Assembly (NCBI GenBank): GCA_902776455.1
Contig: CACYQI010000068.1
Span: 1 to 40,402 of the forward strand
Direction of reading: 5' to 3'
Length of the DNA stretch: 40,402 nucleotides
Origin: an uncultured Bacteroidales bacterium
Lineage (GTDB): Bacteria; Bacteroidota; Bacteroidia; Bacteroidales; Bacteroidaceae
A model generated the notes under the pieces. It was not told the DNA's origin. It ran no database searches and saw only the letters and a list, made by a program, of their open reading frames with translations. Shown piece by piece: positions 7,603-21,655 of this stretch (position 1 is its first letter; each line of letters opens with the position of its first letter). The translations under genes and the position numbers were made by a program.

Positions 7603-10506
7603 CTAAGGCTCCGTCGAAATCCAGTCGAAGTCGGCATAGCCGCCGAGGTGCTTGGTGGCGTAGCAGAAGATGCCGAAGCGGGAGCCGACGAAGACAGAGA
7701 GGTTGAAGGACTGCTGGGTCTCGCTGCCGAAGGGTTCCCAGGTCGTGCCGTCGAGGGAATAGAAGAAATACGCTTTATTTTCGCCATACTTAATAGCAGC
7801 ACGAAGATATACGATGCCCTCTTTTGGCTCGATGGGTTGCGTCTTCTCGGCTGCCTGGAAGTCTCGGCCGGCATTGCGCACCTTGTCCTGTCGCCAGACA
7901 AGCCGATAGGGAGACCCTGTCTCCCTTCCTTCAAGGGAGGGTTGGGGAGAGTCTTTCTCCACGCAAATCATGGCGTAGGGGTCCTGGAAGATGCAGATGC
8001 CGGCGCGGTCGCCTTCCTGGAGATGGCTGACGTCGAGGCGAATGGTGGCTGTAGAAGCACGGTCTGGGTCGGCAAAGATGCGTTGGGTGAGCATGCCACG
8101 GGCCTGATGAAGGTTCTCTGTGATGCCTGTCGTCCTGAGCCGCAGCCAGCCGGGACGCTCCGTGAGGCTCCAGGCACCTTCGGCGGGATAGTGGTTCCAT
8201 TGCCACTGCATGCCCAAGGTCGGCTGGCTGAAGTCGTCAGAACCATTGAGACATTTACCATTTATCCATTTACCATTTGACAGCTTTGCCGGACAAGGTA
8301 TGCAATCCTGGAAGGAGGCGTAGGGCCTCGCCCCCTGCTCCTTGCCCCTTGCTCCCACTATCGGCCAGCCGTCCTGCCACGTGACGGGCAGCAGGTTGGG
8401 GAAGCGACCTAAGGCGCCGAGGTCTTCCTGCATCACGGTCCACCACTGGCCGGAGGTGTCATCGACGAGTGCGCCCTGATGGATGGTGTTGGGCTTCTGG
8501 TCGTACCACTTCTCCACGAGCACCCGCTCCTCGTATGGGCCGAAGATGTCCTTCGAGCGGAACACGGTCTGACCGCTCGGCCAACCGCCGTAGGTGGCAT
8601 AAATATAGTAGTAGTCGCCTATCCTGTAGAGGTGGCAGCCCTCGAGGCCACTGCCTTCGCGCACCACAACCTCTTGCTCGCGGAGGAGGTTGAAGTTCTC
8701 GTCCAACTCGCACATCTGCAAGTGGTTGATGCCGCAGACGATATAGACGCGGTTGCCGTAGAAGAGGAGGCCCGGGTCGTAGTAGTTGCGCGAGAGGCGA
8801 CGCACCGTCCACTCCCCTTCGGGGTCGGTGGTTGTGAGGAGCCAAGCCCTGTGGTCGTTGCCGTTGATGAGGAGGTAGAACCGTCCGTTGTGCCACTTGA
8901 TGGACGATGCCCACATGCCTCTGGCGTAGGCATTCTTGCCGTCGCGAAGGTAGTACTGGTCCTCGTCGGTCAACTGCGTGAGCGGCTGCGCACAGTACTC
9001 CCAATGGACGAGGTCCGGGGACTTCAGTATGGTGGCTCCGGGGAAGTGGTACATCGTTGTGCTGACCATGTAGTACGTGCTGCCGACGCGTATCACGTCG
9101 GGGTCCGGGAAGTCAGCCCGCACAATCGGATTCGTGAACGTCCCCTCTTCTTTTTCACCATTTAACCTTTTTACCTTTTCACTTTTTAAACTTTTCACCT
9201 TTTCCCCTTTTAACCCTTTCACCTTTTCAATTTTTAACCTTTTCACCTTTTCACCTTTCCACGTTTCGTACCATTTCCAGCAGGCTCCGGAGCAGGCTTC
9301 GGGGTTGCCGTCGAAGGCCGGAACGGGGTGCAGAGGGTCCTTGACCATCTTGTCGAGGTCGAGGTAGTCGTGCGGGTGGGTCAGGGTCATCGAGATGTTG
9401 CCGAAGTGGTCGAGCACAGCCTTGTAGCAGACGCCCCACTTCGAGGTGCTGGCCGTCGCCCAGGTGCCCAGGTTCCTATAGATAGAGTCACCCCATTCGT
9501 TGACCTTATCAAACTCGCGAGGCTCCTTGACGGGACTCCAATCGACCTCGGAGACGAAGATGGGATTGGTCTCGACGACAGGCACTTGCTTCTTGAACTG
9601 GGCGATGAACTCACGCTTGCTCTTCTCGATGTCGGCATCGCGGTCCACCTTGCGGTCGTCGCAGCCGTACCAGCCGGGATAGACGTGCACGGCATAGCCG
9701 ATGTTGTCGCCCTCGATGGGATGGACGGCGTAGTCGGCATAGCTCGACTGGAAGCCCGTACCCGGCACCCAGATGATGCCCTTGAAGCCGTTCTTGCGGA
9801 TAAGGTCAACGATTGGCTGGAAGTAGTCGTGCAAGGCACTGTTCTCCTCCCCTTTAAGGGGAGGTTGGGAGGGGTCTTTGCCCCTTATGTTTATCGGCTC
9901 GTTGGCAAGTTCGATGCTCACCAGCCCGGGATTCGAGCGGACGAATTCGTTGCGGGAGACGATGTCCCAGACTTCCATGAGGTACTTCTGGTAGTAGTCG
10001 CCCACCTTGAGGAAAGGCGGACAGACGCCCGGCGGCCGCACGACGACGTACTGCCCGTGGGCGAGGGCTTTTTTGGCAATCGGAACATAGAGCCGCTGCA
10101 TGTAGAGCCTGAGGCGGTCGGGGTTGAAGTGGCTGATGTCGGCCTCGCCTCTTGCACCTTGCCCCTCGCCCCTTGCTCCCGGATAAAAGAAGTCCTTGTC
10201 GTTGGTCCAAGCCGGGTCGAGGTGCAGGCGGAAGATGTCGCAGTTGGCTATCTCGAGGCTTGTCAGCATCTTCTCGAAGTAATCGAGGCAGCGAGTGAGA
10301 CCTTCGTCGTCGTAGCTCCAGCCCCACCTGCCGCCGTTGAACCAGGCATTGGGCGTATCCATCACGCCATGCAGCACGACGCGATTGCCGCTGTCGTCCA
10401 CCAGCCATCGCCCCTCGACATGAATCGGCGGCAACGGCTTCTCAGCCTGTGCCAGAGCCATCATCGCGCTCAGGCACACAATAAGGATAGTTGTCAGTCT
10501 CTTCAT
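7603..10506 (-). CDS. Secreted bifunctional glycoside hydrolase, GH5-GH43
   Basis: A 967-residue exported enzyme starting at MKRLTTILIVCLSAMMALAQ (signal peptide 1-20). A longer frame exists upstream but this start lies 24 bases after a good -7 box. Residues about 28-415 are a GH5-like barrel with acid/base E203 in IELANEP and nucleophile E320 in IFVSEVDW. Residues about 457-735 are a GH43 five-bladed propeller with base D468 in FPDPDV, D577 in YYDPGL and acid E622 in GSGLEGCHLY. A C-terminal beta-sandwich (about 755-967) resembles the domain that often follows GH43. The likely target is a plant hemicellulose such as arabinoxylan, with backbone and side-chain cleavage in one protein; this is inferred from the families. 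At least six repeat-derived segments lie in frame: about 109-121, 209-222, 417-455 (LKxEKVKx linker), 717-727, 742-755 and 851-865. Confidence 0.9.
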   Translation of the reverse strand: MKRLTTILIVCLSAMMALAQAEKPLPPIHVEGRWLVDDSGNRVVLHGVMDTPNAWFNGGRWGWSYDDEGLTRCLDYFEKMLTSLEIANCDIFRLHLDPAWTNDKDFFYPGARGEGQGARGEADISHFNPDRLRLYMQRLYVPIAKKALAHGQYVVVRPPGVCPPFLKVGDYYQKYLMEVWDIVSRNEFVRSNPGLVSIELANEPINIRGKDPSQPPLKGEENSALHDYFQPIVDLIRKNGFKGIIWVPGTGFQSSYADYAVHPIEGDNIGYAVHVYPGWYGCDDRKVDRDADIEKSKREFIAQFKKQVPVVETNPIFVSEVDWSPVKEPREFDKVNEWGDSIYRNLGTWATASTSKWGVCYKAVLDHFGNISMTLTHPHDYLDLDKMVKDPLHPVPAFDGNPEACSGACWKWYETWKGEKVKRLKIEKVKGLKGEKVKSLKSEKVKRLNGEKEEGTFTNPIVRADFPDPDVIRVGSTYYMVSTTMYHFPGATILKSPDLVHWEYCAQPLTQLTDEDQYYLRDGKNAYARGMWASSIKWHNGRFYLLINGNDHRAWLLTTTDPEGEWTVRRLSRNYYDPGLLFYGNRVYIVCGINHLQMCELDENFNLLREQEVVVREGSGLEGCHLYRIGDYYYIYATYGGWPSGQTVFRSKDIFGPYEERVLVEKWYDQKPNTIHQGALVDDTSGQWWTVMQEDLGALGRFPNLLPVTWQDGWPIVGARGKEQGARPYASFQDCIPCPAKLSNGKWINGKCLNGSDDFSQPTLGMQWQWNHYPAEGAWSLTERPGWLRLRTTGITENLHQARGMLTQRIFADPDRASTATIRLDVSHLQEGDRAGICIFQDPYAMICVEKDSPQPSLEGRETGSPYRLVWRQDKVRNAGRDFQAAEKTQPIEPKEGIVYLRAAIKYGENKAYFFYSLDGTTWEPFGSETQQSFNLSVFVGSRFGIFCYATKHLGGYADFDWISTEP

Positions 10507-10529
10507 AGCACAAAGTATCTTTCTGCATG

Positions 10530-10560
10530 CAAAGATACGAAAATAATTCAAAACCACAAG
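10530..10560 (-). promoter_or_regulatory. Promoter of the GH5-GH43 gene
   Basis: On the minus strand TATCTTTG (complement of 10530-10537) is preceded after 19 bases by CTTG (complement of 10557-10560). The gene starts 24 bases downstream of the -7 box, giving a short leader. Confidence 0.6.
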
Positions 10561-10604
10561 CATTAGCAAGGGAAAAAGCAACTTCCTCTGAGTGAAGCCT
10601 TCAG

Positions 10605-12122: not shown

Positions 12123-13619
12123 TCAGCTTTCCTGGAAGATATACGTCAGCCGTTTGTCGGCACCGAAGGCGCTGTAGAAGTAGCTGATGATCTCGCTCAG
12201 ATGTTCCTCCCACTGCTCGGAGACGAACTTGTTCGGTACCTCCACGAACACCACCTTGTCGCGGACGGCCCAGAGGCTGGCGCACGTCATGTACTGAGCA
12301 AAGAACTGTTCGCCCAGACGCTCCTTCGCCTTCTCCATCCACATGTTCCACTTCTCCACATACACCGGCTGCACATAGGGACGTTCCGGCTCCTCCTCCT
12401 TCACCTCGACGGCCTCCACAAACTCCGGCTGCTTGGACTTCTGCTGCTCCAGGAGCCAACGGTAGAGCACCTCGGTGACGTAGGCATGAACGTTGTCGGG
12501 CTGCTTCTCCTCCACGAGCTTGTCGATGCGAGCCAACTGAGGCTTCAGGTCGAGACCGTCGTAGATGAGATCCTCCAGCTTCGCCCACTCCATCGGCTGA
12601 AGATGGTAGCGCGTGATGAGCGTGGCACGCATCTTCCCCAGATAGCTCTCGTGAAGCTGAGCCTGACCCATCTTGCCCTCGATGAGCGTGAAGCGGATGC
12701 TGTCCGGGTCGCCACGGCTCACACCATGAGGATAGACCGGCTCGTACTCGAAGCAGAACTCCACCTTGCCCTCGTCCGAGAGCTTCTTCATCTCCTTCAG
12801 CACAGGGTCGAGCACGTCGCGATGGAAAGCACCGTACTTCACGTAGCGGTTCTCCGTGATGCGCTTGCGGTCCTTGCTGAAAGTGAGCACGCCGAAGAAC
12901 TCCTTCAGGTCGATGTAGTTCACCGTGCAGCTCCCTATCTTGCGCCAGGCACTCAGGTAGATGTACAGACGCGGCGTGCGCGGACTGCGGCACAGCTGCG
13001 TGATGCCTTTCAGGTGGCGCGTGTAGCCCTTGCGAAGGTTCAGAATCTCGCGCGCACTCTCGTCCACCATGTCTATCTTGATGACACCCTTCCTGCGCTG
13101 ACCGCTCTTGTAGGCCACACGCTCGCCCTCGGCATTCAGTTCAGCCGTCGGGAACTCTATCTTGTGGAAAATGTTCTGCTTCACGTCGTACCACTGGCGC
13201 TCGTACTCATCGTAGCGCTTGTACGACATATCGACATGGAGCAAAGCCTCGCAGGCCGCCTCCAGCTCGCCGTACTTCTTCGGACTGATGCCAAGCTCCT
13301 TCAGCGGTATCTCGAAGTGGAGCAAGTTGCCCGAGAGGTCCTCCGGCTTGAACAGGAAAGTGCCCTCGCCCATGCTCAGCTGCTCGCGGATGCGGTCCTG
13401 CAACTGCGCTATGATTGCAATCATCAGGTTCGTCTGCACCAACGAGAAGTTGCCGCGAATCTGCGTATAGCTCACCGGGTTCAGGATAAAATCCAAATCG
13501 CGGCTGCCCGAGAACTGTTGCACCAGCTCATTCGTCCTGCTGACAATAGCCGGTCCTTTTTTCTTCGCCATTTCGTCTTCGTCTAAGAATTCGTCTGCAA
13601 AATTAGGCCATTCCATCAT
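12123..13619 (-). CDS. Plasmid-type replication initiator (Rep_3/RepB) with DnaA domain I-like C-terminus
   Basis: A 498-residue initiator that would bind origin repeats and open the DNA. The start is the first of two adjacent ATG codons (MMEWPNF); a further upstream frame begins only with TTG. Residues about 20-330 match the Rep_3 superfamily with its two winged-helix domains (FILNPVSYTQIRGNFSLVQT, LKELGISPKKYGELEAACEA, NYIDLKEFFGVLTF). The C-terminal 75 residues (424-498; WNMWMEKAKERLGEQFFAQY, then VPNKFVSEQW and AFGADKRLTYIF) closely resemble the DnaA N-terminal domain I, which recruits the replicative helicase and regulators. A low-complexity acidic stretch (EVKEEEPE) joins the two parts. 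It is transcribed away from the tandem repeats and the divergent par genes, the usual layout of an iteron replicon. Confidence 0.87.
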   Translation of the reverse strand: MMEWPNFADEFLDEDEMAKKKGPAIVSRTNELVQQFSGSRDLDFILNPVSYTQIRGNFSLVQTNLMIAIIAQLQDRIREQLSMGEGTFLFKPEDLSGNLLHFEIPLKELGISPKKYGELEAACEALLHVDMSYKRYDEYERQWYDVKQNIFHKIEFPTAELNAEGERVAYKSGQRRKGVIKIDMVDESAREILNLRKGYTRHLKGITQLCRSPRTPRLYIYLSAWRKIGSCTVNYIDLKEFFGVLTFSKDRKRITENRYVKYGAFHRDVLDPVLKEMKKLSDEGKVEFCFEYEPVYPHGVSRGDPDSIRFTLIEGKMGQAQLHESYLGKMRATLITRYHLQPMEWAKLEDLIYDGLDLKPQLARIDKLVEEKQPDNVHAYVTEVLYRWLLEQQKSKQPEFVEAVEVKEEEPERPYVQPVYVEKWNMWMEKAKERLGEQFFAQYMTCASLWAVRDKVVFVEVPNKFVSEQWEEHLSEIISYFYSAFGADKRLTYIFQES

Positions 13620-13740
13620 AAAAAACAAATTTTTGTTGAATAAAATGTTCCAAAGTATCGCACTTTGTTGTTATCTCCACTTCGCACATTATTATATTAA
13701 GCACTTCGCACCGCCATTTTCCCCAACCTGCTCACAAAAT

Positions 13741-13909
13741 TGCTCCAGCAAGTTTACCTAAATGCTCCAGCAAGCCTACCTAAATGCTCCAGCAAGCCTA
13801 CCTAAATGCTCCAGCAAGCCTACCTAAATGCTCCAGCAAGCTTACCTGAATGCTCCAGCAAGCTTACCTGAATGCTCCAGCAAGCTTACCTAAATGCTCC
13901 AGCAAGCTT
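13741..13909. repeat. Seven and a half tandem 22-bp repeats (candidate iterons)
   Basis: Exact 22-base period starting at 13741, 13763, 13785, 13807, 13829, 13851, 13873 and a partial unit at 13895. Each unit carries TGCTCCAGCAAG followed by a variable (C/T)(C/T)TACCT(A/G)AA part. They begin about 120 bases upstream of the repB start. Length, spacing (two helical turns) and position fit iterons bound by a Rep_3 protein. The core GCTCCAGCAAG also appears in other 22-bp arrays of the window, which weakens the specific assignment. Confidence 0.7.
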
Positions 13910-14058
13910 GCACCTCGCTCAGTCAACTCTCTGGCACCTTAGTCACCCCACAACCTTGCACCTCGCTCAGTCACCTCACTGGCACCTTAGTCACCCCACA
14001 ACCTTGCACCAAGCTCAGTCACCTCTCTGGCACCTCAGTCACCCCACAACCTTGCACC
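13908..14058. repeat. Three tandem 48-bp repeats
   Basis: Units start at 13908, 13956 and 14004, with a partial one at 14052. Each has TTGCACCTCGCTCAGTCACC in the first half and TGGCACCTTAGTCACCCCAC in the second, so the unit itself looks like two diverged 24-bp repeats sharing GCACCT...AGTCACC. They directly follow the 22-bp array and may be a second set of initiator or accessory sites. Confidence 0.7.
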
Positions 14059-14063
14059 AGCAT

Positions 14064-14320
14064 CCTTTCCCCTCCCCTTCGAGGGGAGGGGTTAGGGGTG
14101 GGGTCATTTTCCTGCTGCCACAAGCTTCTCCTCCAAAGGGGGAGGATGGAAGGGGCTGGACTTAGGGATGGTTTCTATTACCTGCTGCTACAAGCCCCTC
14201 CTCCAAAGGGGGAGGATGGGAGGGGGCCGGACTTTTAGGTGGTTTCTATTTCCCGCTGCTACAAGCTCCTCCTCCAAAAGGTGAGGATGGGAGGGGGCTT
14301 TTTCCATCGCAGCGGACGAT
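14064..14320. repeat. G-rich palindromes between the tandem arrays and the AT-rich segment
   Basis: One CCCTCCCCTTCGAGGGGAGG palindrome and three related units of roughly 75 bases containing GCTGCTACAAGC and CTCCTCCAAAGGGGGAGGAT. The open frames here are made only of these repeats. Confidence 0.6.
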
Positions 14321-14391
14321 GCGAGGGTACTCTACTTATATATACGACGACCCCCGCCATTTTTTAACCCCCAGTCACAAAAAAATCGAGT

Positions 14392-14735
14392 ATCTTCCCG
14401 AAATCCGCACCAAATGTCCCTCTTTACCACATCTTATCATCCCCTTCGCCACACCAAATCTTCCGTAAGTTCGCACCTTTTCTACCCTACCCCACTGATT
14501 TTTAACTACTTCCTCCACTCCATAAATAATATATTCCGATAAAGTCATAAACGATATTCAAGAGAAAAAAATCTATTTTATAATAATTGAATATCTATTA
14601 TTATATATACTGTCTCCTAATTCTCTGATTATCACCCTATCTTCCTTCCTAATGTGCGAAGATGCGGAACACTTGGTGCGAATCTTTGGAACATAAGGTG
14701 TGGACTTCCACCCCTTTGGTGCGAACTTCACGAAC
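14392..14735. repeat. Cluster of ATCTTCCCGAAGTCCGCACC-like motifs, left group
   Basis: Copies on the plus strand at 14392-14411 and 14458-14477, and on the minus strand at 14675-14692, 14697-14710 (short) and 14718-14735. Sequences vary (for example ATCTTCCGTAAGTTCGCACC) but keep CTTCC...AAG.TCGCACC. They lie in the repB-parA interval; the right-hand group follows the par genes. Confidence 0.6.
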
Positions 14736-15109
14736 ACACGTTTGTCTCTCTCTTCTCTCCTATTTCGCTATTTCCATACCCACATATCTGTATATTCAGA
14801 TACTGTTATTCCTGTACATCCCACTACCCGTATATCCAAATACCTCCATATCTGCATACCTACACATTAGTGTATTCGCGTATTAGCATATTCAAATAGT
14901 AATATATTCTGCTATGTATGTAGTCATGTATTCCCCTATGTGTGTAGTTATATATTTCGACGTATATAGATGCCTACATATTTGCAGATATTTAGGTATC
15001 TGTAGCTATCTTCCCTATTTTCAAGCGATGAAATGGACTTTTTAGCTACATATTTGAATACTTCCAAACATAAAAATACGCGAATATCTCAAAATATCTA
15101 AGTATTTGC
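14510..15109. other. AT-rich segment, candidate DNA-unwinding region or centromere
   Basis: Strikingly AT-rich compared with the surrounding DNA and free of genes. It contains many degenerate short repeats of the type CATATCTGTATATTC, TATTTGCAGATATTTAGG and CGAATATCTCAAAATATCTA. Related elements recur between parA and parB (16062-16125). Position next to the initiator and its arrays suggests the melting region of an origin, a par operator, or both. Confidence 0.5.
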
Positions 15110-15140
15110 TTTGCGGTTCCAAACTTTCTTCATACCTTTG
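15110..15140 (+). promoter_or_regulatory. Promoter of the parA-parB operon
   Basis: TTTG at 15110-15113, 19 bases, then TACCTTTG at 15133-15140: a full match to the Bacteroidetes consensus. It lies inside the longest possible parA frame (which begins at 15111) and therefore supports the start at 15174. Confidence 0.75.
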
Positions 15141-15173
15141 CAGCAGATTTCAGAACGTAACATCACAAAGATT

Positions 15174-16061
15174 ATGTCACAAGTTATTTCTCTTCTCCAC
15201 GACAAGGGTGGTTGCGCAAAGACCACAACGTGCGTCAATTTGGGCTTTGCTCTCTGGCTCCTCGGCAAGAAGGTGCTGCTCATCGACACCGATCCGCAGT
15301 GTAACCTGACAGACACGGTTGACAAGACCGTCCATCTGGAGGCCGAATGTACCATCTACGAATGGCTGCACGACGTCAAGCCCGACCAGGAACTCTCCTT
15401 GCCCATCTACACACGTTACGACGGCCTGGACTATGTGCCGGGCAGTCACAGCATGAGCAACATCAATGCGGAACTGCAACTGATGTACAACCGTGAACGC
15501 CGACTGGCTGATTTCCTGGAACTTACCGACCCAGACAGCGGCCTCCGCATCCGCGACATGTACGATTACATCTTCATCGACTGTGCTCCGGGCGGCGAGA
15601 CGCTGATGAACACCAACGCACTGGTAGCCAGTGATTTCGTTATCGTTCCCACCGAAGCCGGCATTTACAGTCTGCAAGGTCTGCCGCGCCTCCTGGACTA
15701 TATAGATAAGGTACGCACGCAACTCCGCTGTCCTGTCAGCATCATGGGCTACCTGCTTGTTCGCTGGACGAAAAACCGCAGCATCAGCCGCGAAGTGAAG
15801 GAGTACTACAGCAACCGCGATGAAGTGAAGGCACCGCTGTTCCCAGTCAGCATACGCGAAAGCGTAAGATGCACGGAATCCGTTGCTTACGAGATGTCGC
15901 TCTTTGAGTATGCAAGCAACAGCCCCGTGGCTGACGACCACATGCGCGTGGCCGAGTTCATGATTGGTCGCAAGACTCGTCCCAAGAGCTGGACGCCAGC
16001 CCGCTGGGGACAGATAGCGAATGCCGCCTACCAACGCTTCATTCGCGAACGGAGTATGTAA
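15174..16061 (+). CDS. parA: ParA-family partition ATPase
   Basis: A 295-residue Walker-type ATPase that segregates replicon copies with a DNA-bound partner. It has a deviant Walker A motif KGGCAKTTT close to the N-terminus (MSQVISLLHDKGGCAKTT), Walker A' VLLIDTDPQCNLT, and Walker B YDYIFIDCAPGG followed by the switch region VPTEAG. Length and lack of an N-terminal helix-turn-helix put it in the short, type Ib/Soj-like group. The C-terminal part (ESVRCTESVAYEMSLFEYAS) fits the family. The ATG at 15174 is preferred because the promoter -7 box ends at 15140. It is followed by the small partner gene after 100 bases of AT-rich repeats and is divergent from the replication initiator. Confidence 0.9.
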   Translation: MSQVISLLHDKGGCAKTTTCVNLGFALWLLGKKVLLIDTDPQCNLTDTVDKTVHLEAECTIYEWLHDVKPDQELSLPIYTRYDGLDYVPGSHSMSNINAELQLMYNRERRLADFLELTDPDSGLRIRDMYDYIFIDCAPGGETLMNTNALVASDFVIVPTEAGIYSLQGLPRLLDYIDKVRTQLRCPVSIMGYLLVRWTKNRSISREVKEYYSNRDEVKAPLFPVSIRESVRCTESVAYEMSLFEYASNSPVADDHMRVAEFMIGRKTRPKSWTPARWGQIANAAYQRFIRERSM

Positions 16062-16140
16062 ATATCTGAATACCTAAATACTGAAACATTCAGATATTGA
16101 AACAGCTGAATATCCAAACACTTCACCTTTTCAACCATTC
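16062..16140. repeat. AT-rich repeats between parA and the partner gene
   Basis: AATATCTGAATACCTAAATA, then ATTCAGATATTGAAACAGCT and GAATATCCAAACAC. These resemble the short repeats upstream of the par promoter (15048-15105) and could be binding sites for the partition partner. Confidence 0.45.
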
Positions 16141-16161
16141 AACAACACATCTTTTCATACT

Positions 16162-16533
16162 ATGGCAATCAAGAAGAAATCCCTGAATATCAGCCGTGTG
16201 GCCGAGGATGCCACGCGGAACTATGTAGCTCCCAAGCCCCTTGCCACCAACGAGGCTGTGCGCACGCAGATTGTGCAGGAGACGCCTGCGCCGAAGCCCT
16301 TGCGCCGCGTCTGCACCATACAGAAGGTGGGCGGCTTCACCTTCTTCACGACGGAGGATGACCGCAACGCCCTCGACTACATCGCCTTCCGCCAGAAGCT
16401 GGAGAAGCAGAACGTTGTTCGTGCTGCGCTCCATCAGTTCCTGCGCCAGCACTACAAGGAGGGGCAGGGCCTCGATGCCGAGTCCATGCACATCATCGAG
16501 CAGTACGAGGACAGCGTCTATCAGTGGGTCTGA
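16162..16533 (+). CDS. Small basic partner protein of ParA (ParB-like)
   Basis: A 123-residue protein, second gene of the par operon. Residues 1-50 are basic and probably unstructured (MAIKKKSLNISRVAEDATRN), followed by TIQKVGGFTFFTTEDDRNAL and a helical C-terminal part (FRQKLEKQNVVRAALHQFLR). This is the layout of small ribbon-helix-helix-like partners such as those seen with type Ib ParA proteins, although I cannot recognise a named family. Gene order and size point to the centromere-binding role. Candidate targets are the AT-rich repeats on either side of parA or the 20-bp motifs at 14392-14735 and 17178-18085. Confidence 0.65.
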   Translation: MAIKKKSLNISRVAEDATRNYVAPKPLATNEAVRTQIVQETPAPKPLRRVCTIQKVGGFTFFTTEDDRNALDYIAFRQKLEKQNVVRAALHQFLRQHYKEGQGLDAESMHIIEQYEDSVYQWV

Positions 16534-16605
16534 CCGGCTCCAAGCAGCTGAGGTCATGCCGACAGCGCGATTCTGGCCGAGACGTCCGTTTGGCTGAGGA
16601 TCCTT

Positions 16606-16645
16606 TCCCCTCCCTTTTAAGGGGAGGGGGTAGGGGTGGGGTGAA
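16606..16645. repeat. G-rich palindromic repeat
   Basis: CCCCTCCCTTTTAAGGGGAG followed by GGGTAGGGGTGGGG, a single copy of the common family, after the par operon; it could act as its terminator. Confidence 0.5.
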
Positions 16646-16808
16646 TTGACTGACGACTTTCTTTAGTTCTCAGTCTCCACCCAGCCTCGCCACCTACGAC
16701 TGGATTTGGAAGCAACCTCAGGTGCGCGGACGAGTCTGCAACGGTCGTGCTATAGGCGATCCGCTCGCATTCCAAATTCCCCCGAAATGGTAGGGAAAAA
16801 GGGGAAAA

Positions 16809-16880
16809 ATGGGCAAGTTATTCAAACAACTAAAAAATCTTGTCAAAATTTTTCGGAACAATTTACTTCCCTTTCTGTAG
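16809..16880 (+). CDS. Possible 23-residue amphipathic cationic peptide
   Basis: A short frame with an ATG preceded by a purine-rich stretch (AGGGAAAAAGGGGAAAA). The predicted peptide begins MGKLFKQLKNLVKIFR and ends in a hydrophobic NNLLPFL. Lysines and arginine at 3, 6, 9, 13 and 16 alternate with L/F/V/I at 4, 5, 8, 11, 12, 14 and 15, which would make one charged and one hydrophobic helix face. Such peptides occur as membrane-active toxins in plasmid maintenance loci, and it sits just after the par operon. No promoter of the TAnnTTTG form is seen and a chance frame is quite possible. Confidence 0.25.
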   Translation: MGKLFKQLKNLVKIFRNNLLPFL

Positions 16881-16935
16881 CATTTCAGCACCCCGACCAG
16901 AGTCTCAGCCGACACTTGCTGTTGTGTAAGCTCAC

Positions 16936-16979
16936 ACAACGTGGAGCATCGCCCGAAACAACGTGGAGAAAAGGCCGAC
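16936..16979. repeat. Short 22-bp-period array
   Basis: Two units of ACAACGTGGAG plus variable bases (GCATCGCCCGA and AAAAGGCCGAC). They are the inverted form of the GCTCCACGTTG family found at 21400-21510 and elsewhere. The surrounding 16650-17170 holds no gene that I can support apart from the short frame at 16809. Confidence 0.55.
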
Positions 16980-17177
16980 ACTGCACTAAGAGTTGGCTCA
17001 TTCTCCAGTAAGTATCGCATTGGTTGATTATCAGTACATTGCAGAATACCCCGTTGAGTAACGCATTTTTCTGCTCGAAATGTCAACATTTTTTGTGATT
17101 AAGGCAATTTGTAAACATTCACCCCTGCCTTTTCTACCACAATTTTCAATTTAGAAAGCCTCGTTTTACGCGAAAAA

Positions 17178-18085
17178 GTTCCTGAAGTTCGCACCAACAG
17201 CCCCGTGAAGACAGAACAAGGTGCGGACTTTGAGAACTTTTAATCGCGTGAAATGATTCCTTGAGAGCACTCTTCCCGAAGTCCGCACCACAAGGGTAGG
17301 GTAGGGCTTGGACAGGAAAGAATTTTCCGCGGAGCAAAGGAGCCGAAGGAGATTGGGCAGGGGTGGAGACTATTGTCCGCTGCAACAAGCTCCTCCCCCA
17401 CAGGGGGAGGATGGGCGGGGGCTTGTTCCCTTCGAGGCGGAAAGGAAAGGAAGTCCCTCCTCCCAAAGGGGAAGAATGGGCGGGGGCTTGTTCCCTTCGA
17501 GGGGGAGAGGTAAGGGAGATGAAGTCTCAGTCTGCGGTAAATCTTCCCGAAGTCCGCACTTATTGAAGGATAGTTCCCGAAGTCCGCACCTAAAGATGAA
17601 TGGCAAGAGCCGCTTTATTGCTGGGAATAGGTCGAAGTGCGGACTTTGGGAAGATTTCTTGCGCCACTCAGTATCGAACCCGACGAGCAACTGCAGCGGA
17701 AATCTTCCCGAAGTCCGCACGAAGGGTCAACTTGGGCTATACATATTTACTGAAGTTTCGGAAGTTAAAATGGAAGTTAAAATGGAAGTAAACTCGCTCC
17801 GCTCGTGGGAGTTAAAATGGACAATACCATGTAGGCTGTCAGCATCCAAAGCTATCGTCCAGCACGCAGTGCTTAACTTCCAGCCTGCAAAGCAGGCTTA
17901 ACTCCCTATTTAACTTCATCTTATAACTCCCGAAGAGCGATAACTGTTCCGGGATTGCAAATCCCTATACTCTCTGCGGGCTGATTACAAATCCGCCCGA
18001 ACTGGAGGGCAGGTGCTATGCGAGAAGAAGCATGGCGAGGTGCGGACTTCGGGAAGATGCCATGAGGTGCGGACTTTTGGAACAT
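17178..18085. repeat. Cluster of ATCTTCCCGAAGTCCGCACC motifs, right group
   Basis: Plus-strand copies at 17178-17195, 17271-17289, 17541-17559, 17572-17590 and 17702-17720; minus-strand copies at 17220-17237, 17638-17656, 18039-18058 and 18066-18085. Four copies share the core TTCCCGAAGTCCGCAC exactly. Each has a small dyad CTTC-CC-GAAG followed by TCCGCACC. The interval otherwise holds G-rich palindromes (17380-17515) and one leader-type element (17753-17935); no gene is supported. Confidence 0.75.
17753..17935 (+). repeat. Leader-type repeat element, copy A
   Basis: Begins GTTTCGGAAGTTAAAATGGA and ends with ATAACTCCCGAAG. The inner part includes GGACAATACCAT, AGCACGCAGTGCT and a GCCTGC/GCAGGC hairpin. 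The two ends are imperfect inverted repeats. Copies B, C and D lie in gene leaders. This one is followed by a degraded GATTTGCAATC-type repeat (17945-18010), not by a gene. Confidence 0.65.
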
Positions 18086-18299: not shown

Positions 18300-18570
18300 C
18301 AGGAAATAGTCCCCACCCCTAACCCCACAGCCCCTTCCCATCGTCCCCCATGGGGGAGGGGCTTGTAGCGGCAGGAGATAGACTCCACCCCCCTCCTATC
18401 GTCCTCCTTTGGGGGAAGGGAACAGTAGAAGTTAGGGAGGTTCTCTGCGGCCATTCCCCTCCCTTCGAAGGGGAGGGGTTAGGGGTGGGGTAATATACAG
18501 TCTGGGAACTATCATCTTTGAAAGAATGAGTCCCCACCCCTAACCCCTCCCCTTCGAGGGGAGGGGAAAG
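18300..18570. repeat. Four G-rich palindromic repeats upstream of the GH27 gene
   Basis: Units at about 18305-18365, 18380-18425, 18455-18495 and 18530-18572, in both orientations, containing CCCTCCCTTCGAAGGGGAGG and CCCCACCCCTAACCCCTCCC. If the promoter at 18142 drives the GH27 gene, these form most of its leader. Confidence 0.7.
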
Positions 18571-18671
18571 GAAGCGAAGTAACCCAGCCGACGTGCGGAA
18601 GCAACTCAGCCAACGAGCTGCTTTCTGCCTTCCTTCACGCGAAAGATAATTGAAATTAACACGATACGACA

Positions 18672-21399: not shown

Positions 21400-21655
21400 C
21401 ACGCTCCTCGGAGCATCGGCCTACGCTCCACGTTGTGTAGGCTCACGCTCCACGTTGCATCGGGCTACGCTCCAGCAAGCGTTGGCCCAAGCCCCACGTT
21501 GTGTTGTCTTCATGTGCTCCATGTCCTCCGTAGAATAACAATCTCTAAGGAGTCAAGGAGCCAAAGGAGAAAGCCTCCATCAGCGGCAGTCCGAGCGGAT
21601 TTGCAATCCGCTCGCATCGAATATAGGGATTTGCAATCCCGCCATTCTTGAATCG
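21400..21655. repeat. 22-bp-period array and GATTTGCAATC hairpin repeats
   Basis: 21400-21510 has about five units of 22 bases with GCTCCACGTTG or GCTCCAGCAAG cores. 21525-21575 has CCGTAGAATAACAATCTC and AAGGAGCCAAAGGAG. 21596-21652 has hairpins GAGCGGATTTGCAATCCGCT and GGGATTTGCAATCCC. From there to the RNA promoter at 21858 nothing else was recognised. Confidence 0.65.

Follow-up and report, generated by a model that had tools for sequence, protein, structure and literature searches.

A candidate iteron-type replication origin with an apparently chimeric initiator on housekeeping-gene DNA of rumen Bacteroidales

The window analysed here is a stretch of 40,402 nucleotides and constitutes an entire contig of a metagenome-assembled genome (MAG) of an uncultured Bacteroidales bacterium (3.39 Mb in 94 contigs, 87% complete). 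Its subject of interest is a candidate replication origin and partition locus, made up of an initiator gene (rep), a spacer filled with repeats, a partition ATPase gene (parA) and a small gene encoding 123 amino acids (aa) downstream of it. The locus was compared with its counterparts in other genomes, and all counts of distribution refer to 139 genomes of the genus. No tRNA was found in the window, and a Rfam scan of it gave no match. The locus contains the following features, with the tandem arrays taken from Tandem Repeats Finder (TRF).

12123..13628, minus strand: rep, gene of the putatively chimeric initiator (Pfam Rep3_N, E 9.8e-7)
12123..12380, minus strand: part of rep predicted to encode a DnaA domain I (likeness to the genome's own DnaA; DnaA_N in relatives)
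13741..13909, no strand: 22-bp tandem array (TRF, 7.7 copies, 96%), role doubtful
13903..14058, no strand: 48-bp tandem array (TRF, 3.2 copies, 93%)
14392..14482, plus strand: origin core, forward arm, sites ending at 14411, about 14455 (degenerate) and 14477, spaced by 44 and 22 bp
14515..14615, no strand: AT-rich candidate unwinding element, containing ATAAACGAT and a TTGAATATCT-like run
14653..14740, minus strand: origin core, reverse arm, GTG(CG) words starting at 14654, 14676, 14698 and 14719
15174..16061, plus strand: parA, type Ib-like partition ATPase of 295 aa (AAA_31, E 2.3e-39; ParA-like PHROG, 3e-52)
16162..16533, plus strand: 123-aa gene downstream of parA, probable centromere-binding partner by position and sequence pattern
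17178..18083, no strand: second cluster of core-type sites past the par genes, nine copies with at most two mismatches

Initiator, origin core and partition genes

The Rep_3-type initiator gene that had been predicted from the sequence was borne out by the Rep3_N match. Profiles and a structure model assign the N-terminal part of Rep (residues ~44-322) to the RepE/pi type with two tandem winged-helix domains, and for the C-terminal part (residues ~419-499) both profile and fold match DnaA domain I (PF11638). Aligned over 74 positions with the DnaA N-terminus from the same genome, this C-terminus shows 34% identity, and DnaA_N exceeds the Pfam cutoff in the relatives L080, L086 and L180. Domain I is the only part of DnaA matched by the profiles; the AAA+ domain III and the box-binding domain IV found no match in Rep. 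Profile and model together support Rep being a chimera of an iteron-binding RepE/pi-type part and a C-terminal DnaA domain I. The translation start is possibly a later ATG, as the matches in L006 and L014 begin at MAKKKG. The Rep sequence sets were drawn from the available loci (A1, n = 18; A2, n = 31). Plasmid records matching Rep number 39, every one with less than 60% identity and none spanning 80% of the protein, and the best 20 of these 39 are confined to its N-terminal two thirds. The idea that the window contains a phage or plasmid island was rejected on these plasmid figures and on the lack of any match in the phage collection.

The 1.5-kb spacer between rep and parA holds an origin core that the window shares with each of the 14 close relatives compared. 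These 15 loci come from the 19 genomes with a Rep at least 84% identical; L006, L010 and L020 end before the region and G039 is represented by 1.5-kb flanks only, and the 74% Reps of L013 and L014 were also omitted from the alignment. In all of the aligned loci, opposed arrays of 22-bp-phased sites flank an AT-rich stretch, with YCGCACC copies in one direction and GGTGCGR in the opposite one. Of 75 pairs of same-strand sites no more than 150 bp apart, 47 have a spacing that is an exact multiple of 22 bp, with at least one such pair in every locus. The arms lie 180-183 or 202-204 bp apart in 14 loci and 247 bp apart in L012. The alignment has 69 invariant columns out of 358, and ATAAACGAT is exact in 11 of the 15 loci. 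A fixed pattern of two reverse sites matched 15 of the 139 genus genomes, every one with a Rep, and had no control hits; G033, of the 74% Rep group, matches it. Phased direct repeats and an AT-rich element thus adjoin rep, as in the iteron origins of the Rep_3 or RepE-pi class, and the AT-rich segment expected here is seen as a lower GC content of 0.41 at about 14.5-15.5 kb.

The original prediction also described a 20-bp motif flanking the par genes. This motif, GAAGTCCGCACC, is indeed there and turns out to be the conserved 22-bp-phased site of the core. With at most two mismatches it occurs 20 times in the window against 3.9 expected, a number that none of 100 shuffles reached, and 13 of the matches fall in 14400-18077. 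In the 15 loci the motif reaches about 1-2 copies per kb up to 6 kb from rep, compared with 0-0.63 per kb elsewhere in them; loci with Reps of the 74% or ~35% group contain zero to three copies each. A similar word, CGCACC, persists in the 74% group (in L013, where YCGCACC occurs six times and is partly 22-phased, and in G033), and the core site was not found in the ~35% and short Rep types among the loci compared. Beside these divergent Reps, ParA is still 80-83% identical in L014, L078, L080 and L081, and 31-32% identical in L082 and L083. The motif therefore tracks Rep more than ParA, which is what a Rep site would show. This is suggestive of GAAGTCCGCACC being the Rep site, with the reservation that the 123-aa protein diverges too (62-72%).

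The 22-bp and 48-bp tandem arrays, which had been put forward as part of an iteron replicon, are both present but are not conserved in the relatives. For this reason, and because 22-bp-period arrays of other sequences lie elsewhere in the window, they are weak iteron candidates, and the tandem 22-bp array was rejected as the iterons for its lack of conservation. The other arrays, which differ in sequence and are unrelated to the origin, start at 21401, 24405, 27340, 30141, 32165, 35319 and 37939. Interspersed G/C-rich palindromic elements, CCCCTCCCCTTCGAGGGGAGGGGTTAGGGGTGGGG, are also dispersed in the window (14064-14107, 16602-16645 and 18440-18575).

Of the predicted divergent parA-parB operon, the parA half stands, and the gene at the parB position is the 123-aa gene, whose product has no convincing Pfam family and none in NCBIfam or PHROGs. 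ParA is short and lacks an N-terminal helix-turn-helix, the AAA_31 match beginning at residue 3 as in type Ib, and among 14 aligned relatives it is 80-94% identical in eight and 29-48% in the other six. In a 13-row alignment the 123-aa protein is 62-96% identical, with one row at 30%. Judged by its position and sequence pattern, it is probably the centromere-binding partner of ParA; its AlphaFold2 model was too poor for use (predicted local distance difference test score, 53.5). What we take to be the parA promoter, TTTG-19-TACCTTTG at about 15107-15137, was read by eye against the Bacteroidetes consensus, and a sigma-70 scan at this place was unremarkable (5 sites versus 3.2 expected). The sites past the par genes are also present in 14 of 14 close relatives examined; that cluster is a candidate copy-control or centromere region.

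GC skew and DnaA boxes

Cumulative GC skew was computed on five relatives' contigs (G024:C1, G050:C3, G032:C20, G051:C47 and G036:C66). In the first four its minimum lies within the locus from rep to the 123-aa gene or at most 1 kb away, at positions 109,836, 185,917, 37,341 and 57,404, respectively. The skew minimum that had been proposed for this locus is thus seen in four of five relatives, but not in G036:C66 and not in the 40-kb window itself. When the locus is masked, the difference between left and right flanks persists in the same four (p = 5e-5 in G024, 0.024 in G050, 0.006 in G032 and 1.5e-4 in G051) and is absent in G036 (p = 0.22). Skew also goes from negative to positive across rep in all seven 20-kb loci with Reps of 34-37% identity (L077-L083). 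Among loci with a Rep at least 84% identical and flanks of 5 kb or more on both sides, 6 of 10 show this switch (L005, L007, L008, L015, L017 and L018), three of the six being contigs already in the five-contig set. Loci of the short Rep type are mixed, with a switch in L084, L085 and L090 and none in L086, L087, L088, L091, L093 and L095; L089 and L092 could not be scored because their upstream flank is absent.

It could be argued that repeat-rich intergenic composition mimics a skew minimum by chance and that the motif family is one of many 22-bp repeats. The many 22-bp arrays in the window, the strongly C-rich spacer and the two sequences without a switch would fit such an explanation. However, the flank difference survives masking in four of five contigs, a minimum in the matching interval occurred in only 77 of 576 control windows, and the two-site pattern is confined to Rep-bearing genomes. 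We regard chance as very improbable.

No exact DnaA box is present in the window and no cluster was found at the locus, nor did the portions of the five relatives' contigs that were scanned hold a DnaA-box cluster. As a positive control, the same scan found 11 boxes with at most one mismatch in 500 bp at L121:16573-17072 (G310:C1), where the sampled skew of that contig goes positive. This cluster, between what we presume to be nrdB and a DUF3108-like gene, is likely the oriC of G310, a two-contig Prevotella-type genome, and lies about 830 kb from the Rep_3 gene of that genome, which is near the skew maximum. The location of dnaA away from a skew switch says little, since oriC is commonly distant from dnaA in Bacteroidetes (PMC4755523).

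Two other markers were tried and discarded. A strand-biased octamer used as a skew proxy in G050 was uninformative, its bias in the training sequence having failed elsewhere among the matches listed. The TGTKGATAA pair, which 55 of the 139 genus genomes match, was rejected as an oriC marker because it adjoins a second, soj-like parA. Its sites, TGTTGATAA, are a DnaA-box-like word with copies mostly 20 bp apart (for example, G000:C5:74722-74750). Of the 19 genomes that place both, 17 have the pair directly upstream of the soj-like parA, with G074 and G101 as exceptions. The pair may link DnaA to chromosome partition.

A further explanation is that the locus is a relic or passenger, a plasmid or phage-plasmid replicon that has integrated, fires rarely or not at all and happens to lie near an unrecognised native oriC. 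Two IMG/VR contigs are in line with this (L201:881-7559 and L202:743-7597), each carrying ParA, a Rep with a C-terminal DnaA_N match below cutoff and a 629-aa gene that, by eye, is possibly a terminase. DnaA_N was found in 2 of 10 IMG/VR Reps scanned, both times below cutoff. These contigs are possibly phage-plasmids sharing the initiator type, and the resemblance suggests that Rep may have come from a phage-plasmid source. It is also described that one of two origins on a chromosome can be silenced, as in Vibrio cholerae NSCV2 (PMC6284228). On the other hand, the core is conserved across 15 genomes, loci with very different Reps are likewise placed at skew switches, and the scanned parts of the five contigs lack a DnaA-box cluster, which makes a silent passenger improbable.

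Gene content of the replicon

The contig G050:C3 (205 kb) carries rep together with rplK-A-J-L-rpoB-rpoC, that is, the genes of ribosomal proteins L11, L1, L10 and L7/L12 and of RpoB and RpoC, and further with gyrB, ftsZ, ftsA, murC, murD, murE, murG and mraY. This is the gene set of a primary chromosome. G024:C1 is colinear with the rep-side 130 kb of G050:C3. A common contig for rsmH and rep was found in the window, G024, G050 and G032, and separate contigs in G051, G036, G123, G120 and G045; rpoB was not found in G032, G036 and G120. Of the housekeeping genes predicted for the window, rpmB and rsmH score above their profile cutoffs, while mraZ has strong MraZ matches (E 1.7e-53) that stay under the cutoffs of those models. 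The window also encodes, at 7603-10581, a 992-aa protein fusing GH5-like cellulase and GH43 xylosidase domains.

The locus could instead drive a separate large replicon, a secondary chromosome, with dnaA and a DnaA-box oriC driving another. Two chromosomes are known from named Prevotella, and in P. intermedia the second one has a Rep_3-type protein and the genes for L28 and L33 (PMC4755523). The window likewise holds rpmB (L28), and dnaA is never on the rep contig where both are placed, a separation that fragmented MAGs would show anyway. In 10 of 19 g13 genomes examined, dnaA does not share a contig with rsmH (G280, G295, G296, G310-G314, G327 and G335). The content of the G050 contig speaks against a secondary chromosome, as does G310, in which rpoB and rsmH share a contig with the DnaA-box cluster. 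The g13 Rep_3 proteins, moreover, had no DnaA_N in three of three scanned, and the one in G310 is near the skew maximum. Of the two options in the original prediction, a second chromosome is therefore the less likely and a captured plasmid replicon fits the relative's gene content better. We consider a second chromosome unlikely, though the least unlikely of the alternatives weighed here; it shares with a captured origin the premise that the origin is functional, and the probabilities of the two overlap.

A captured origin and its possible role

Taken together, the conserved iteron and AT-rich core, the RepE-like fold and the skew minimum in four of five relatives' contigs support the predicted origin and partition locus. 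We think it probable that this is an iteron-type origin, captured long ago and now residing on the housekeeping-gene chromosome of a rumen Bacteroidales clade. Initiators of the RepE type bind to phased repeats and unwind AT-rich DNA. In the same manner, Rep would bind the opposed 22-bp-phased arrays, open the AT-rich element between them and, through its fused DnaA domain I, recruit the replicative helicase DnaB, while ParA and the 123-aa protein would segregate the origin. Domain I of DnaA participates in helicase loading (PMC4980987). With a domain I of its own to recruit DnaB, Rep would make DnaA boxes unnecessary. We infer that the locus is the chromosome's main origin today.

Several observations weigh against a captured origin in this role. 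A Rep at least 84% identical is present in 19 of the 28 genomes whose DnaA is at least 79% identical to that of the window, any Rep match at all, with weak and DnaA-only matches counted in, in 49 of 139 genomes, and none in G099, which is listed as 100% complete, so that not every genome has the locus; 136 of 139 have dnaA. G036:C66 has no skew switch whether or not the locus is masked, and the window has its own minimum 13.8 kb from rep. In G032 the best unmasked split is at 125 kb with the rep region second, and masking shifts the minimum to 23,150, about 9 kb from rep. Negative-to-positive flanks are missing in L003, L009, L012 and the window, and in two of the six switching loci with a Rep at least 84% identical the downstream skew value is below 0.005. 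The left/right share of leading-strand genes is mixed (0.67/0.62 in G024, 0.72/0.31 in G050, 0.15/0.76 in G032 and 0.66/0.51 in G051). Linkage of rpoB to rep was seen on one contig only, and rpoB is on a non-rep contig in G000, G024, G091, G015, G051 and G055, which fragmented MAGs would also give.

Further from the window, Rep is 73-79% identical in 8 of 15 genomes with a DnaA identity of 63-68%, some Rep is present in 8 of 8 at 59-62% (one split and one a short fragment), and below 59% it is sporadic. In L078-L081, ParA (80-81%) and the 123-aa protein (62-69%) remain similar next to a ~35% Rep, and the initiator therefore seems to have been exchanged while the partition genes stayed.

Iteron origins themselves are familiar from plasmids and secondary chromosomes, and the chimeric initiator and the gene content are the unusual parts here. 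In contrast to the iteron plasmids F and R6K (RepE/pi-type, Rep_3), the initiator has a DnaA domain I, opposed arrays flank the AT-rich element, the origin is on core-gene DNA, and no DnaA boxes were seen, such boxes being common but not universal in that class. Vibrio secondary chromosomes with ori2 and RctB differ in that the relative's contig here has rpoBC, gyrB and the dcw cluster. Single-chromosome V. cholerae likewise has a plasmid-type origin beside primary-chromosome genes, but there these are chromosome fusions in two strains (PMC6284228), compared with many species of a clade here. Cyanobacteria independent of DnaA-oriC are a similar departure, Synechococcus elongatus having moved to an integrated plasmid origin; they are dnaA-deletion mutants or have irregular skew (PMC7198777), in contrast to the conserved origin and chimeric initiator described here. 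For the second chromosome of P. intermedia, the study reports no plasmid-maintenance genes or iteron-like repeats near the Rep_3-type protein and no clear skew transition (PMC4755523). Neither a fusion of Rep_3 with DnaA domain I nor a comparable origin is described among the matches listed from open-licence PMC text (titles and starts of abstracts).

Nearly all bacterial chromosomes are thought to initiate at oriC through DnaA. A bolder proposal, which we advance tentatively and hold to be somewhat less than an even prospect, is that a captured plasmid or phage-plasmid initiator with the helicase-recruiting domain of DnaA starts the primary chromosome solely or mainly, DnaA and oriC having been displaced as the start system. 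If true, a plasmid-type origin beside rpoBC, gyrB and ftsZ across many species would mean that the start system is replaceable in nature, and the fusion to DnaA domain I suggests a route for the replacement, in which the helicase-recruiting step was carried along. The remaining role of DnaA in such cells would then become directly testable.

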